From: Collinsella tanakaei
Lineage (GTDB): Bacteria > Actinomycetota > Coriobacteriia > Coriobacteriales > Coriobacteriaceae
NCBI RefSeq assembly: GCF_030373545.1
Contig: NZ_JAUDCO010000004.1
Location: 186,001 to 250,000 of the forward strand
Length of the DNA: 64,000 nt
Direction of reading: 5' to 3'
Positions 13,800 through 22,831 of the stretch are shown piece after piece. The stretch's first letter is position 1, and each line of letters starts with the position of its first letter. The notes beneath the pieces were generated by a model, which did no database searches, was not told the origin of the DNA, and worked only from the letters and a program-made list of their open reading frames with translations. A program made the translations under genes and the position numbers.

Positions 13800-13944
13800 C
13801 AGCGGGTACAGACCCGTGTCGAGCCCGCGCTACACGGCAGCGAGTACAGGCCCGTGTCGAGCCAGCGCTACACAGCCGGCGGGCGAAGACCCGTGTCCAG
13901 TCTGAGCTAAACGGCAGCGGGCGCTGAAGACCCGGCGGCAGCCG
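13800..13944. repeat. Three 38-39-bp tandem repeats plus a partial copy at a gene 3' end
   Basis: Units start at 13800, 13838 and 13876, with a partial unit from 13915. The shared core is CAGCGGGTACAGACCCGTGT-GAGC-GCGCTACACGG. The stop codon of the CmpB-family gene lies in unit 3, and each further unit carries a related CTA triplet in the same place, so the repeats look like duplications of the gene's own tail. There are no spacers of CRISPR type. Confidence 0.75.
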
Positions 13945-15226
13945 CGTCGCCCGCAGGCTGTTCGGCTACGGCTTCGCTGTCGATACGGCCGGAGTCCCCG
14001 GGCGTGATGGTCATGCTCTCAAAGCGGTGCGCCATGTAGGCGTCGTCGAAGTTCTTCGCGTAGAACGCTTCGACCGGGGTCGTGCCCGCCACGCCGGACA
14101 GGCGCTCGAACCAGCAGTCGAGAGCCTGCAGCGTCATGACGCCGTTGACGAGCATGAGCACAGTGCACAGGGCGGTAAAGGAGTAGCGCAGCTTCCACGG
14201 GATGATGTTGATGAGCTTGAGCAGCCACGGCAGGCAGAGCTTGATCCACACGAAGCCGAGCGCGCCCCACATGCACATGAACAGCGTGCTCGTGCGCCCG
14301 CCGAACAGCGCGGCCACCGGGTCGGGGAACAGCCCGAAGATCGTGGAGCCCGAGTAGTCCCACGCCACGGCACCGAAGCCGGTCTGCATGAACCAGCTCA
14401 CGGCCGCCTCGAACAGGCCGCCGATAATGGCGGACACCACGAAGATGATGACGGGGTTGGCCTTGTAGAAGCGGTTGAGCGCCACGGTCATGAGCACGGC
14501 ACCGAAGCCGTAAATGGGGGAGAACGGGCCGAACAGCATGCCGGCGCGATCCTGATATACGCCCGGCTCGACGACGACCATGTGGTAGATGGTCTCGATG
14601 ATCAGGCCGAGCACGCAGCAGACCACGAATACCCAGAACAGGTTGAAGAAGTTGAGCTCGATGTAGCCCTTGCCCTCGAGGTCGCGTCCGAGCATGCCCA
14701 TGCGCGCCGCCTGGCGATCGGTCAGATCGCGTGCGGTGCGCTCGAGATGGCGCTCGTGGCGTAGCGTCGGGTCGACGGTCACCGACAGGGTGAGCAGGAT
14801 GACGAGCTGGATGGCGTCGGGGATGAGATTCGTGCCGATGCCCTCGAGCATGATGCGCAGAAGGATCTGCACGAGCGTGGTCGCGATGAGCGCATAGGAC
14901 CAACGCGCGGCGTTGCGGCGGCGATCCTTGAGCAGCGAATGGCCGAAGATGATCAGCGCGATGCCGTTACCGAGCGTGACGACGATCGAGATCGCGAGCA
15001 GCACGACAGGCAGGGTCGGGTCGGTGCCGACAGCGATAAGCTCGGGATTCGTCTGCAGCGCCCACATGACCATCGCGCCGAAGATGAAGATCATCGGGAC
15101 GGTGATGATACCGTCTGCCATGCAGAGGAAGCCGTAGATCTTCAGAATGAGCGGGATTTCCTTCGTGGAATTCGCGGTGGCGCCCTGGGCGGCCCCCTTG
15201 CCGTCGGACGGGGTGATATCGGTCAT
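13907..15226 (-). CDS. CmpB-family (putative ABC-transporter type IV) membrane protein
   Basis: A 439-residue polytopic membrane protein. The N-terminal half has about four membrane segments starting with PLILKIYGFLCMADGIITVP. After a cytoplasmic linker (HERHLERTARDLTDRQAA) comes the CmpB/PF06541 signature: IIETIYHMVV, DRAGMLFGPFSPIYGFGAVL and further helices. The C-terminal 50 residues are Ala/Gly-rich and coincide with the tandem repeats, so the tail may vary between strains. The start has AAAGGAT upstream. It diverges from the small membrane protein at 15474 over a 247-base region with a TCGTCAA palindrome. PF06541 proteins have no proven transport activity. Confidence 0.8.
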   Translation of the reverse strand: MTDITPSDGKGAAQGATANSTKEIPLILKIYGFLCMADGIITVPMIFIFGAMVMWALQTNPELIAVGTDPTLPVVLLAISIVVTLGNGIALIIFGHSLLKDRRRNAARWSYALIATTLVQILLRIMLEGIGTNLIPDAIQLVILLTLSVTVDPTLRHERHLERTARDLTDRQAARMGMLGRDLEGKGYIELNFFNLFWVFVVCCVLGLIIETIYHMVVVEPGVYQDRAGMLFGPFSPIYGFGAVLMTVALNRFYKANPVIIFVVSAIIGGLFEAAVSWFMQTGFGAVAWDYSGSTIFGLFPDPVAALFGGRTSTLFMCMWGALGFVWIKLCLPWLLKLINIIPWKLRYSFTALCTVLMLVNGVMTLQALDCWFERLSGVAGTTPVEAFYAKNFDDAYMAHRFESMTITPGDSGRIDSEAVAEQPAGDAAAAGSSAPAAV

Positions 15227-16129: not shown

Positions 16130-17047
16130 ATGAACATCCGCCAGCTTCAGTATTTCTACCTCGCTGCCTGTTACGGCAGCTTTTCCGAGGCCGCTCGCGC
16201 CGAGGACGTTTCGGTCCAAGCGGTATCCAAGGCCATCATCGAGCTTGAGGAAGAGCTGGGGCAATCCCTATTTTTCCGTGAGGGGAGAAGTATTTCCCTC
16301 ACGGGATTTGGCAAAGCGATGGTCGGTCCTGCTCGTGAGGCGGTTGCGAGCTTCGATGCAGTGGGCAGGGCGGCGGAATCGTATGGCATGGCTGATGGCG
16401 ACGCGTCGCAGCAGATCCTCCGTATCATGCTCGTATCGCCCCCCTTTGCAAAATACGAGCTGGTGTGCAGCGCGCTTTCGCAACTGATTTCCCACATGAT
16501 CGGCACGAAGACCCATATTGCAATCGGCAGGGGAGCCGATGCGCTGGCCGATCTGCGTGCCGGCAACATCGACGCACTCATTACGATCGGTGCTTTTTCG
16601 AATCCCCGTTGTGTCACCCGCGCGCTCGGCAACGTATCGGTCGGTGCCTTCATGGGCAAGAAGCATCCTCTTCGCCGCAAGCGCCTTGTGAGCTTTGATG
16701 ACTTGGAGCCCTATCCGGTCCTGTTCAATAAAGACATCGATTCATTTAACGATACGATTCTGTCCGCATGTCAACGCAGCGGCCTCAGCTCGGATGTGGT
16801 GGAGATCCAAACCGACGCCGAGGTTGCCGATTTCCTCGAGTATCGGGACGGCTACGTGCTGGGCGTCTATCTCAAGGCGCTCGATATCAAACCGCTTGCC
16901 GCCATGCACAAGATCGATCCCGCAGATGCTCCTCCGATTCCCATATGCGTGGTGACGCTCAAGGGTAAGCAAGGCGAGAAGTACGAACGTCTCGATCGCT
17001 TTGTTTCCAGGGAGTTTTCCCTGCTTAAAAGGATGTTCAACGAGTAA
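16130..17047 (+). CDS. LysR-family transcriptional regulator
   Basis: A 305-residue regulator. Residues 1-60 are the winged helix-turn-helix (MNIRQLQYFYLAACYGSFSE, then VSVQAVSKAIIELEEELGQS and LFFREGRSISLT). The effector-binding domain follows from about residue 90. The upstream 130 bases contain a TCGTCAA palindrome that also occurs between the two preceding membrane-protein genes, so autoregulation and control of those genes are plausible. It converges with the MscS-like gene across a shared 15-bp terminator. The effector is unknown. Confidence 0.9.
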   Translation: MNIRQLQYFYLAACYGSFSEAARAEDVSVQAVSKAIIELEEELGQSLFFREGRSISLTGFGKAMVGPAREAVASFDAVGRAAESYGMADGDASQQILRIMLVSPPFAKYELVCSALSQLISHMIGTKTHIAIGRGADALADLRAGNIDALITIGAFSNPRCVTRALGNVSVGAFMGKKHPLRRKRLVSFDDLEPYPVLFNKDIDSFNDTILSACQRSGLSSDVVEIQTDAEVADFLEYRDGYVLGVYLKALDIKPLAAMHKIDPADAPPIPICVVTLKGKQGEKYERLDRFVSREFSLLKRMFNE

Positions 17048-17120: not shown

Positions 17121-17157
17121 AAAGGACCCTGGAACCAATGTTGTTCCAGGGTCCTTT
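17121..17157. terminator. Bidirectional terminator between convergent genes
   Basis: AAAGGACCCTGGAAC (17121-17135) pairs perfectly with 17143-17157. A-run and T-run flank it, so it serves both the LysR gene and the MscS-like gene. Confidence 0.9.
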
Positions 17158-17184: not shown

Positions 17185-20100
17185 CTAGTGACGATCGGTG
17201 TCGTTGAAGTCGTCGAAGTCCTCGTTCTCGTCCACGTATGCCTTGAAGGCTTCCTTTTGCTCCGCATTGAACTTGTCGGCAGCGGCCTTCTCTGCGGCGG
17301 TGGCCTTCTTGAACTTAATCGGCTGGTTGACCACGACCTGCGGGAACGGGATGGAGATGTCGTACTTGTCGAATAGCAGCTTCATCTCGCGATTCAGATC
17401 GCTGGTGAGCACGACGCGGTCCTTCTCGGCGCATTCGGCCACGATCTTGATGTTGACCGAGTTGTCGGCGAGCATCGTTACGCCCTTGTAGAACGGACCG
17501 TCGACGATGGCCGGCAGGCGGTCCTTGATGTTGGGCAGCTCCTTGGAAAGGATGCTCTCCACGCGCTCCAGGCTCTCGCCGTATTCGATGCCGACCTCGA
17601 CGGCGGCGAACGAATGCTCCTTGGTCATGTTGACCACATTGGAGATGTTGGAGTTGCGCAGCACGAGGATGTTGCCCGAGCCGTCGTTGATCTTGGTCGT
17701 GCGCACGCCGATTTCCATGACGGTGCCGCGCTGGCCACCGACCTGGATGATGTCGCCGACGCGGAACTCGCCCTCGAAGATGATGAACAGGCCGGCGATG
17801 ATGTCGGACACGATGCCCTGGGCACCGAGCGAGACGGCAAAGGTCAGAAGACCGGCAGAGGCGAGCAGCGTGGCGGTGTCGACGCCGAGCAGGCCCAGGC
17901 ACCAGTACAGGATGCCGATCATGGCGGCGTATTTGACGATGCTCACGCCGAGGCGGCATATGGTCACGCCGCGGGCATCGAGCACGCTCGAGATCATCTG
18001 CAGGATCTTTTGGATGATGGCCGAGATGGTCAGCGCCTCGCAGGCGAACATGAGGCTCGCCGTGATGGCGAAGATGTTGAGGCCGCGCTCCCACGAACCG
18101 CCGAGGATGTAGGAGAACAGGGAGTCCTCGCCGAAGACGGCATCCTTGAAGATAATCGCCAGGAACACGATGATGACCGCGGCGCTGCCGAACCAGCGCA
18201 GCACCTTGCCGACCTTCTGCTCGGGCGTCATCTCGTCCCAGTTGAAGGAGCGATTCAGCCAGCGGCTGGCAGCGGACTCGGAGCGCACCGTGCGGTCGCC
18301 GACGTTCACGTTGACGATGCGGCTGTTGTCACGGTTCTCCTCGGGTTCGTTCCCTTCGGCGGTCTGCTCCTCCGCGGGCATGGTGGTGTCGAAGGTGAGC
18401 AGGCAGAACACGATCGCCAGGCACACGAGTGCGACGACGCCGGTGGTGATGGTCAGCGGGGCGCGCTCGTTCATGAGCGCGCCCTCGGTGCCGGCGACGA
18501 ACACGTAGTAGTCGCTCGTCTCGGTAGCGGAGGCGTAGTACTGCTTGCCGTTGATGGTGATGTAGTCGCTGAAGCCGTCCTTGAGCTCGTCTTCGGCCAT
18601 GCCGCAATCGGTAGCCTTCTTGCCGACCATGTTGTCGTCCGGATAGTAGGCGAAGGTGCCGTCGGACTTGTTGATTGCGAACGCGAAACCGTCGACGCCG
18701 GCTTGCACGCCGTCCAGGACGTTGCCGATCTGGACGATCTCGAGCAGGTTCTCGAGGCGTGTCGGGCGGATGCCCAGCTGCACGAAGCCGGTGAGTTCGC
18801 CTTCCTTGTCATGCGTGGTCACGCCGATATATTGGCGCAGCTCGCCGGAAACCTCGTCGGGCTGCGGCTTTTGGACGAGATACTCCACGCCCTGCAGCAG
18901 CTTGCGGAACTCGTAGGACTGCTCTTCGGGATCCTCGGACAGCGTGAAGTTGGTGAAGCTGGAGTTGGTGGCGGTCATGACGCCCCGGTCATCGAACGTG
19001 AAGACGTATTGGATCTGGAGGGCGTCGGCGAGCTCCTGGAGCTTCGTGCGGGTGGCGAGCTCAGGGTTGTTATCGATGATATAGGCGGCGACCTGGGCCT
19101 TGGATAGGTAGCGCTCGCCGTACTGTTCGGTCAGCTCGTCGGCGCGCTGCTGGCTGCGCTTGATGGTCGAGGCGATCTGCTCGACGCGTTCGTTGTTGGT
19201 GAGCGACTGTGAGGACAGCGCGAACAGGGTCTGCATGTAGAACGAGACCACGAGCACGCAGATGAAGCCGACGATCGAGAGCACGGCGGCCTTACCGGCG
19301 ACGGAGCGGTTGAAGCGGAAGGCGCCGTGGTCGACATAGTGTTCCTCGTATCCCTCCTCGCTCTCGTGGCGGGCCTCGTCGCGCAGCACGAAGATGCCGT
19401 AGAGGGTGACGGCGGCGATGACCGCGAAGAACACGAACAGGATGACGCCGACCGTGACGCTGCCGGAGGCGGCGGTGTCGGACTCCGGAACGGCGGAGAT
19501 ATAGTAGGTATCACCCTGGAGCATGACGCGGCAGAACAGCTCCTCGCCGTCGATCTTCATGATTCCGGTGTTGCCGTCCTCGAGGTCGGCGACATTGAGG
19601 CCGGCGTCGATCGCGTCGGCGCCGATCAGGTCCTCGTCGGGGTGATAGGAGATGACCAAATCCTTGGCGGAGACGGCGAACACGTAGCCATGCTGGCCGA
19701 TCGAGATGTTGCGCAGCACGCTCGCGGTAGAGCCGGTCGCCTCGATGAGCTCGCGCAGCTCGGTCGGGTTCTGCTCGACGATCACCATGGTGTCGTCGTC
19801 GATGCGGTCGGCGTAGTAGCGCATGAGCCAGTCCTGCTCGGGCAGCTCGATCTCGACGGCAGCGGAGGGTTCATGCGTGCGGAAGGTGTCGCGCAGCGCG
19901 TTGAAGCGCGCGTAGGTGAAATCGGCTTTCGTCTCGCCGGACTGCGCGAGGACCTCGCCGTCGCGGTCGGTGACGAACAGGTTGTCGACGTCGAGCAGCT
20001 CGCGCAGCTCGACCATCTTGGCGTCGGTCTCGGCGTAGCCGGCGTCGTTTTGCGCCATATAGGCGACCTGAGCGGCCTTGGACTGGTAGATGGCGTCGAA

Positions 20101-20301
20101 CTGCTCGGTGTTCTGCACGGTCTCCTCGTCCGCCTCGGCGAGCAGGCGTTCGAGCTGGACGGCCTCCTGTTTCATCTCCTCGTCATAATTACCGTGGCTG
20201 AGCGAGCTTTGCATGTTGGTGAGCAGGGCGCCCATGACGATCATGCTGGCTGCGACGACGATCAACAACGCAGTAATCTTGATTCTAAGATGTTTGGACA
20301 T
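17185..20301 (-). CDS. MscS-family channel with two Cache-like extracellular sensor regions
   Basis: A 1038-residue membrane protein. Order: TM1 (about residues 7-27), a first extracellular sensor of about 250 residues ending in a Cache-like GYVFAVSAKDLVISYHPDED segment, TM2 (about 285-310), TM3 (about 337-360), a second sensor with GFAFAINKSDGTFAYYPDDN, TM4 (about 640-660), a charged linker, then three helices and the MscS core. The core is clear: LLASAGLLTFAVSLGAQGIV is the pore-lining helix and FRVGDIIQVGGQRGTVMEIG the beta domain. Ordinary MscS is about 290 residues. The start is the ATG at 20301 with TAGGAGGC upstream. It follows the solute-binding lipoprotein gene after 11 bases, so the two are one operon. 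The design suggests a channel tuned by an external ligand. The ligand is unknown. Confidence 0.9.
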   Translation of the reverse strand: MSKHLRIKITALLIVVAASMIVMGALLTNMQSSLSHGNYDEEMKQEAVQLERLLAEADEETVQNTEQFDAIYQSKAAQVAYMAQNDAGYAETDAKMVELRELLDVDNLFVTDRDGEVLAQSGETKADFTYARFNALRDTFRTHEPSAAVEIELPEQDWLMRYYADRIDDDTMVIVEQNPTELRELIEATGSTASVLRNISIGQHGYVFAVSAKDLVISYHPDEDLIGADAIDAGLNVADLEDGNTGIMKIDGEELFCRVMLQGDTYYISAVPESDTAASGSVTVGVILFVFFAVIAAVTLYGIFVLRDEARHESEEGYEEHYVDHGAFRFNRSVAGKAAVLSIVGFICVLVVSFYMQTLFALSSQSLTNNERVEQIASTIKRSQQRADELTEQYGERYLSKAQVAAYIIDNNPELATRTKLQELADALQIQYVFTFDDRGVMTATNSSFTNFTLSEDPEEQSYEFRKLLQGVEYLVQKPQPDEVSGELRQYIGVTTHDKEGELTGFVQLGIRPTRLENLLEIVQIGNVLDGVQAGVDGFAFAINKSDGTFAYYPDDNMVGKKATDCGMAEDELKDGFSDYITINGKQYYASATETSDYYVFVAGTEGALMNERAPLTITTGVVALVCLAIVFCLLTFDTTMPAEEQTAEGNEPEENRDNSRIVNVNVGDRTVRSESAASRWLNRSFNWDEMTPEQKVGKVLRWFGSAAVIIVFLAIIFKDAVFGEDSLFSYILGGSWERGLNIFAITASLMFACEALTISAIIQKILQMISSVLDARGVTICRLGVSIVKYAAMIGILYWCLGLLGVDTATLLASAGLLTFAVSLGAQGIVSDIIAGLFIIFEGEFRVGDIIQVGGQRGTVMEIGVRTTKINDGSGNILVLRNSNISNVVNMTKEHSFAAVEVGIEYGESLERVESILSKELPNIKDRLPAIVDGPFYKGVTMLADNSVNIKIVAECAEKDRVVLTSDLNREMKLLFDKYDISIPFPQVVVNQPIKFKKATAAEKAAADKFNAEQKEAFKAYVDENEDFDDFNDTDRH

Positions 20302-20312
20302 GCCGACGCCTC

Positions 20313-21176
20313 CTAGTTCCACTTGTCGATGAGCGTGTCGATGGTGTCGTCGTCGAGCATGCCCTGGATGGCGTCGGCGACCTTGGGCGAGAGCTCGGAG
20401 TCCTTCTGCGTGGCGACGCCGAAGGACTGTTCCTCGACCACGAAGTCATCGAGGATGTGGCGCTCGTTGTTCATGTAGGTCTGCGCGATGGCGCCGTCGA
20501 GCACCATCGTGTCGATCTCGCCCTCCTCGAGTGCGTCGGAAAGCTCCTGATAGGAAGGGTACTGAACTAGACGCCAGTGATCGAACTGCACGTCGCTGTT
20601 GTCCTCGTTGGCCGAGCGAACCTCGCCGTCGGAGAACCCGATTTCGTAGAGTTTGATGTTCAGCAGCGGGGCGGCGTTGGCACCGCTCATGGTGCCGAAC
20701 GTGCAGCCCTTGAGGTCGTCGATCGTCTCGAACAGCGACGAGTTCTGGACGACGGCGATGACCTTGTCATCGTAGTAGGCGGGGGAGAAGTCGAAGTTCT
20801 CGAGGCGGGCATCGGCGATGGAGTAGCACGCGACGAGCGCATCGACCTCGCCTTCGAGCAGGAGCTCCTTGCGGTTGTCGGGCAGGACCGTCGTGAACTC
20901 GACGTTCTTGTAGCCCAGACGGTTTGCCAGCTCGTTGGCGATGTCGATCTCGAGGCCGTAGTACTTGCCGGTTTTCTCGTTGAGATAGCCGAACCCGACG
21001 ATGTCGGCGCGAACGCCTACGCGCAGGGTGTCGGAGCTTGCCGTCGTTGCTATCGGCGACGAGCCGCTGGCGCTTCCCGTCGAGCTGCCGGCATCGGTGC
21101 AGCCGGCGAGCCCGGCGAGCGCGAGGACGCCAGCGAGCGCGGCGGCCCCGAACTGCCTCCGTGTAATTGTTTGCAT
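20313..21176 (-). CDS. Family-3 solute-binding lipoprotein, amino-acid type
   Basis: A 287-residue extracellular lipoprotein. The signal TRRQFGAAALAGVLALAGLAGC carries both a twin-arginine motif and a lipobox, with Cys26 as lipidation site. The mature part is a bacterial family-3 binding protein: LRVGVRADIVGFGYLNEKTG, YGLEIDIANELANRLGY, and DDLKGCTFGTMSGA. These usually bring polar amino acids to an ABC importer. No permease or ATPase gene is present here. Instead the gene is cotranscribed with the Cache-MscS channel, so it may present ligand to that protein. The start has AGGAGGGA upstream. The ligand cannot be read from sequence. Confidence 0.9.
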   Translation of the reverse strand: MQTITRRQFGAAALAGVLALAGLAGCTDAGSSTGSASGSSPIATTASSDTLRVGVRADIVGFGYLNEKTGKYYGLEIDIANELANRLGYKNVEFTTVLPDNRKELLLEGEVDALVACYSIADARLENFDFSPAYYDDKVIAVVQNSSLFETIDDLKGCTFGTMSGANAAPLLNIKLYEIGFSDGEVRSANEDNSDVQFDHWRLVQYPSYQELSDALEEGEIDTMVLDGAIAQTYMNNERHILDDFVVEEQSFGVATQKDSELSPKVADAIQGMLDDDTIDTLIDKWN

Positions 21177-22515: not shown

Positions 22516-22831
22516 TCAGTCCAACGGGGCATCGAAATAGGAGCTTGATTCGTGCACAACACGGTCGATATAGACCGCGTCGTCCTTAACATGGTAGATG
22601 ATCACATAGTGCTGCGCCGAGACGCGGCGGTATTCGGCGTCGGGAGATTCTGGCAGCTCAATCAGCGTTCCGGAATGGGGGAACGCAGCGAGGAGGTTCA
22701 CCCGATTGGCGATTGCGGAGACGGCTCGGTTGGCCGCCTTTGGACTCGCGGGGGTCTCGCTGATATAGGTTCCGATCTCGCCGATATCGAGCTGCGCCAT
22801 GTTTCGCTGAAGAATTGTACGATGACTTCAT
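22516..22831 (-). pseudogene. ParE/RelE-like toxin gene with a probable start-proximal frameshift
   Basis: The readable frame starts at an ATG at 22800 and gives 94 residues (MAQLDIGEIGTYISE, then RRVSAQHYVIIYHVKDDAVY). This matches RelE/ParE-type toxins but lacks the first strand. The missing part, HRTILQRN, is present in frame just upstream and is preceded by a stop codon instead of a start. An ATG AAG at 22831-22826 lies one base out of frame. Removing the T complementary to 22825 would restore a normal N-terminus. A functional toxin is therefore doubtful. Upstream there is no clear antitoxin; only a 35-codon frame ends at the same place. Weak alternative: translation from 22800 gives a short protein. 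Confidence 0.6.

Follow-up and report, generated by a model that had tools for sequence, protein, structure and literature searches.

We analyzed a window of 64,000 nucleotides from Collinsella tanakaei (order Coriobacteriales; contig NZ_JAUDCO010000004.1, positions 186,001 to 250,000 of the forward strand; coordinates below are those of the window). In it, two minus-strand genes separated by 11 nt encode a family-3 solute-binding protein (SBP; 20313..21176, 287 aa) and a membrane channel (17185..20301, 1038 aa, ATG at 20301) with two Cache sensors ahead of an MscS core. The ribosome-binding site AGGAGG of the channel gene, read in the sequence (20309..20314, minus strand), overlaps the SBP stop codon. 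No permease or ATPase of an ATP-binding cassette (ABC) transporter is encoded in this operon. The two-gene unit, the channel length and the missing ABC components had been given in a preliminary description of this DNA, and they were confirmed here. A gene 2 kb off (13910-15226) belongs to PF06541, a family labelled 'putative ABC-transporter type IV' but not one of amino-acid importer permeases. It is also found close to the locus in some relatives, and adjoins an SBP relic in one genome (G013; G and L numbers denote our genomes and loci).

Pfam matches, hydropathy and the AlphaFold model give the following order for the channel protein: a transmembrane (TM) helix, Cache1, two TM helices, Cache2, a TM helix, a cytosolic linker, an extra TM helix and the MscS core, with TM helices thus on both sides of either Cache domain. 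Cache2 (18448..19248, minus strand, residues 352-618) contains a Pfam dCache_1 match at residues 365-602 (E 1.9e-14, above cut-off), and its model matches dCache structures such as the ectodomains of DctB, KinD and PctA (Z 12-13). Cache1 (19432..20220, minus strand, residues 28-290) gave a weak Pfam signal. It aligned with Cache2 in a profile-profile comparison with hhalign (probability 99.9, E 7.6e-33, 247 columns, 24% identity), and its AlphaFold model matches the Cache-type sensors TlpB and 4exo (Z 10.9). For both sensors a dCache fold is predicted. From the profile match and the common Cache-receptor fold we therefore conclude that they are a tandem duplication. That the two Cache-like extracellular regions of the preliminary description were a wishful reading of motifs is ruled out by the hhalign and fold matches of both domains; Cache folds, which it had named as a check on predicted structures, are present in both. 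The linker from TM4 to the MscS core (18217..18384, minus strand, residues 640-695) was delimited by hydropathy and has low values of the predicted local distance difference test (pLDDT) in the AlphaFold model.

The MscS core (17332..18081, minus strand, residues 741-990) comprises three TM helices, the pore helix, and the β and C-terminal domains. MS_channel_1st and MS_channel_2nd both score above the Pfam cut-offs, the latter with E 2.9e-16, and the channel matches structure 3udc (E 1.6e-34). The gate region is intact, as had been claimed for the pore and β domain. For comparison we used a set of 80 loci with full-length channel relatives, taken from other genomes of Coriobacteriia and Bacillota. 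The pore helix and β domain are among the best-conserved parts of these proteins. The residue equivalent to N117 of Escherichia coli MscS is Asp in all 76 of 76 channels, and the equivalent of G113 is mostly Asp or Glu. G113 and N117 have been linked to MscS inactivation, and both are also replaced in the glutamate exporter MscCG (PMC6110860). Their replacement here suggests sustained conduction. After the core come only about 40-50 hydrophilic residues; the C-terminal extension of MscCG, which holds a fourth TM helix, has no counterpart here.

The SBP matches Pfam SBP_bac_3 (PF00497; E 5.6e-24) and has the two-lobe amino-acid-binding fold. The top Foldseek match of its AlphaFold model (pLDDT 93.5) is 2v25, the Asp/Glu receptor PEB1a (E 6.7e-22), and a Glu-bound SBP of E. 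faecium (5eyf) is also among the nearest folds. R56, R102, S119, R124, Y209 and D227 are invariant among 76-78 SBPs. The pocket residues have the spacing of the Asp site in mycobacterial GlnH (Arg147, Ser164, Arg169, Trp232, Asp250; PMC6069109) and align with those of PEB1a, where the GlnH Trp232 position is Tyr, as it is here (Tyr209). Moreover, R102, S119, R124 and D227 reproduce the pattern of Asp/Glu SBPs, i.e., an Arg for the side-chain carboxylate with a Ser, an Arg and an Asp for the backbone. From these invariant residues, the GlnH spacing and the PEB1a alignment, an acidic amino acid (Asp or Glu) or a close analogue is the predicted ligand. Compared with ABC-linked SBPs, a set of four paralogues only, the channel-linked proteins share R102, R124, Y209 and D227 and differ in or near the pocket at R56 (Lys in the paralogues), S119, N167 and mostly C117 (each Thr in the paralogues), as well as at two further sites, 73 and 128. 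With its core kept and channel-specific substitutions around it, the pocket has therefore been retuned, not lost.

The N-terminal signal of the SBP (21099..21176, minus strand) contains, as read in the sequence, a twin-arginine-like TRRQF and the lipobox LAGC with Cys26. By this signal the window SBP is a membrane-anchored lipoprotein, in line with the preliminary description. About 20 Coriobacteriia SBPs likewise have (S/T)RRxF ahead of the lipobox, and export by the twin-arginine pathway is possible. In about 20 SBPs from Bacillota the lipobox is missing and the signal peptide has an AxA-like end (e.g. L151, L157, L163-L166, L183-L187). On a single-membrane cell another factor must therefore retain them, and retention by the channel would fit.

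Directly upstream of the channel gene and on the same strand, the SBP gene is found in 78 of the 80 loci, mostly at a spacing of 9-20 nt. Of the two unpaired loci, one lies at a contig edge and the other is broken, in a metagenome-assembled genome. Since the pair is kept in this way in two phyla, the association is not due to chance. We also surveyed 397 genomes of the order, calling the channel at 50% identity or above and the SBP clade at 55% or above. The channel was present in 59 genomes, 58 of which had the SBP clade; the two genes adjoined in 57 of these 58 and were split over contigs in the remaining one. Only a single case of the SBP clade without the channel occurred in the order, i.e., the relic in G013, and the SBP was lost or decaying together with the channel in G195 and G013. 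Conservation of the pair across genomes had been set beforehand as a test of the proposal, and neither survey refuted it. An ordinary orphan SBP beside an ordinary channel is ruled out by the linkage together with this reciprocal distribution. Distances among the SBPs correlate with those among the channels (r 0.85), partly through shared ancestry. In the channel tree, Coriobacteriia and Bacillota form two cleanly separated parts; the unit is therefore old, or was transferred once between the phyla. We rejected a spread through all Actinomycetota, as 296 genomes sampled from the phylum outside the order gave MscS-core matches only. SBP linkage as a rule for every Cache-MscS protein was also rejected, given relatives of 27-34% identity without an SBP.

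The next SBPs outside the clade are at most 39% identical, and those inspected sit in ABC operons. In these genomes and in G388 the nearest SBP paralogue adjoins ABC ATPase and permease genes. At the pair itself no importer permease or ATPase recurs among the 80 loci, though they are present at the paralogues. There is also no constant third gene in this set; ABC exporter-like and hemolysin-like genes recur at some loci only. Normally, family-3 SBPs serve as subunits of importers, and orphan SBPs that share a permease are known. The SBP might thus be an orphan subunit of an amino-acid ABC importer encoded elsewhere, its linkage to the channel only co-regulating uptake and release of one and the same solute, while the Cache domains sense alone. 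The paralogue beside ABC genes, with its largely shared pocket core, speaks for this explanation. We nevertheless consider it unlikely, because the SBPs form a separate clade with pocket changes, are linked one-to-one with the channel in two phyla without permease or ATPase, and disappear or decay along with it.

An AqpZ-type aquaporin gene adjoins the pair in 19 of the 80 loci, in both phyla. It lies just upstream on the same strand in nine Bacillota (L148, L152-L155, L158, L161, L162, L170), divergently in eight Coriobacteriia (L113, L117, L119, L123, L140-L142, L180) and downstream in two Oscillospiraceae (L177, L178). The best NCBIfam match of the aquaporin is aquaporin Z, under the equivalog cut-off. 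Adjacency changed its state at least seven times on the channel tree. Genomes with the channel have an AqpZ-type aquaporin in 42 of 59 cases compared with 69 of 338 other genomes (Fisher p 5e-14, relatedness uncorrected), and such a gene is also found in a divergent Cache-MscS locus of G298. The repeated adjacency in two phyla suggests an osmotic role.

The preliminary description had suggested a ligand-tuned osmotic valve or amino-acid efflux system, with the binding protein handing its ligand to the Cache domains. Its osmotic or efflux part is backed by the AqpZ linkage and the replaced G113 and N117. The hand-over fared differently. The motif RxW[YF], which we take to be the amino-acid motif of dCache_1AA sensors, was found in 1 of 76 Cache1 and 0 of 76 Cache2 sequences, so that neither Cache domain carries it as a rule. 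Plain transfer of an amino acid is therefore disfavoured, and docking of the loaded SBP is likelier.

We lean, with slightly better than even confidence, towards a two-protein MscS valve that is tuned by an extracellular solute through docking of the SBP on the Cache ectodomains. In such a valve, the membrane-anchored SBP would close on an extracellular acidic amino acid (Asp or Glu) or close analogue and, loaded (or empty), would dock on the tandem dCache ectodomains of the channel dedicated to it. TM1-TM4, and then the cytosolic linker, would relay the resulting change to the MscS core, where the pore could come to open at another tension threshold or with another probability. Osmolytes, plausibly including glutamate and other anions, might thereby be released in keeping with the solutes already outside, in many genomes with the AqpZ water channel as part of the same locus.

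Several observations weigh against this valve. Divergent channels of the Cache-MscS type have no linked SBP (L190-L195, L197, L198), and two of their loci are preceded by genes for a CotH-domain protein and a protein without Pfam match, respectively; such a channel can therefore function without an SBP. In C. tanakaei ET10, the closest sequenced relative, the SBP gene has two in-frame TAG codons (L110, region 2386-2940 and upstream), while the channel is intact and 95% identical to that of the window; the stop codons represent either early decay or a sequencing error. The window locus itself has no adjacent aquaporin, the same genome having one elsewhere. Finally, dCache modules usually signal as dimers whereas MscS is a heptamer, which makes the geometry of coupling hard to picture.

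Alternatively, swelling could release glutamate-like osmolytes via the channel, which the SBP would trap at the cell surface for re-uptake, leaving gating unaffected. Such recapture or exchange would go well with the predicted acidic-amino-acid pocket of the SBP and with MscS-type glutamate export in Corynebacterium and Bacillus methanolicus (PMC6110860, PMC12541555), but it leaves the invariant tandem Cache ectodomains and the missing linked importer unexplained, and we regard it as quite improbable. We give similarly little credence to the channel protein being chiefly a receptor, its MscS-like core a signaling scaffold that is no longer tension-gated: the receptor-like architecture, the extra TM helix with the linker and the altered gating residues would suit it, yet the conserved pore helix and β domain argue otherwise, there is no cytosolic signaling domain, and aquaporin linkage suits a channel. 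A purely structural, ligand-independent SBP, serving ectodomain folding or stability, might be suspected from the unanchored Bacillota SBPs, as though these were channel-held, but is very improbable with ligand-pocket residues invariant in two phyla.

Next to the pair, a LysR-type regulator gene (16130..17047, plus strand; Pfam HTH_1 and LysR_substrate) is convergent with the channel gene. The LysR neighbor cluster occurs in 11 of the 80 loci and is convergent in several Collinsella and other Coriobacteriaceae loci; regulation of the pair by this protein is possible but unproven. Between the two convergent genes, the sequence has a perfect 15-bp inverted repeat with a 7-nt loop (17121..17157), a probable terminator shared by both. 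The terminator scan did not report it because a T-run is absent. Upstream of the pair, no sigma-70 promoter match rose above chance level. An open reading frame for a ParE-like toxin is located at 22519-22800.

SBP-receptor pairs and amino-acid-exporting MscS channels are already known. In the literature, which was covered in part and with few subscription journals, we found no description of an SBP or a Cache domain partnered with MscS. In a published census of Cache outputs, calcium-channel-type domains are the only ion channels, and MscS is not listed (PMC4822843). If gating depends on the SBP, the pair would represent a new class of ligand-controlled channels, i.e., an MscS pore gated via a separate SBP and tandem Cache domains that forms, with AqpZ, an osmotic unit sensing both solute and tension. 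This we put forward tentatively, at somewhat less than an even chance. MscS channels are usually viewed as tension valves, and not much is known of chemical inputs that reach them from outside. The valve proposed here would tie osmotic release to the detection of one specific amino acid outside the cell, and would add a channel to the kinases and cyclases through which SBPs signal. As the pair is carried by gut Coriobacteriia and Clostridia (Collinsella, Gordonibacter, Olsenella, Blautia, Oscillospiraceae), it would also offer a testable route for amino-acid release by gut bacteria.

In LuxP-LuxQ and NspS-MbaA, encoded by adjacent genes, a Cache/PAS-like ectodomain receives the ligand signal from a binding protein. 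These receptors differ from the channel in having a single ectodomain and a histidine kinase or cyclic di-GMP enzyme as output. E. coli MscK, MscM and YbiO share an MscS core after a long N-terminal region; to our knowledge, however, none of these regions is a Cache domain or is partnered by an SBP. GluR0-type glutamate receptor channels are likewise controlled by a family-3 SBP fold, and 2pyy is among the matches of the SBP model, but there the SBP is part of the same polypeptide as a potassium-channel-type pore, whereas here it is a separate protein with an MscS pore. The fold and most pocket residues are those of ABC importer SBPs such as PEB1a and the E. faecium protein, from which the SBP differs in having no linked permease or ATPase and in the changes at R56, S119, N167 and mostly C117. 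With MscCG, which releases an amino acid, the channel shares an MscS core with both G113 and N117 replaced, N117 by Asp; in contrast, the C-terminal extension of MscCG adds a fourth TM helix, and MscCG has neither ectodomain nor SBP (PMC6110860). The dedication of the SBP to one membrane protein, seen in the locus set and reciprocal in the order, is of the type found in GlnH-GlnX and LuxP-LuxQ. In the GlnH-GlnX-PknG system of Mycobacterium and other Actinobacteria, a family-3 lipoprotein SBP for Asp/Glu is proposed to signal by docking (PMC6069109). Whereas its sensors are predicted four-helix bundles and its output is a soluble kinase instead of a channel, both systems pair the SBP gene with that of a membrane protein having two extracellular sensor regions, and both SBPs have the same pocket residues at the same spacing.

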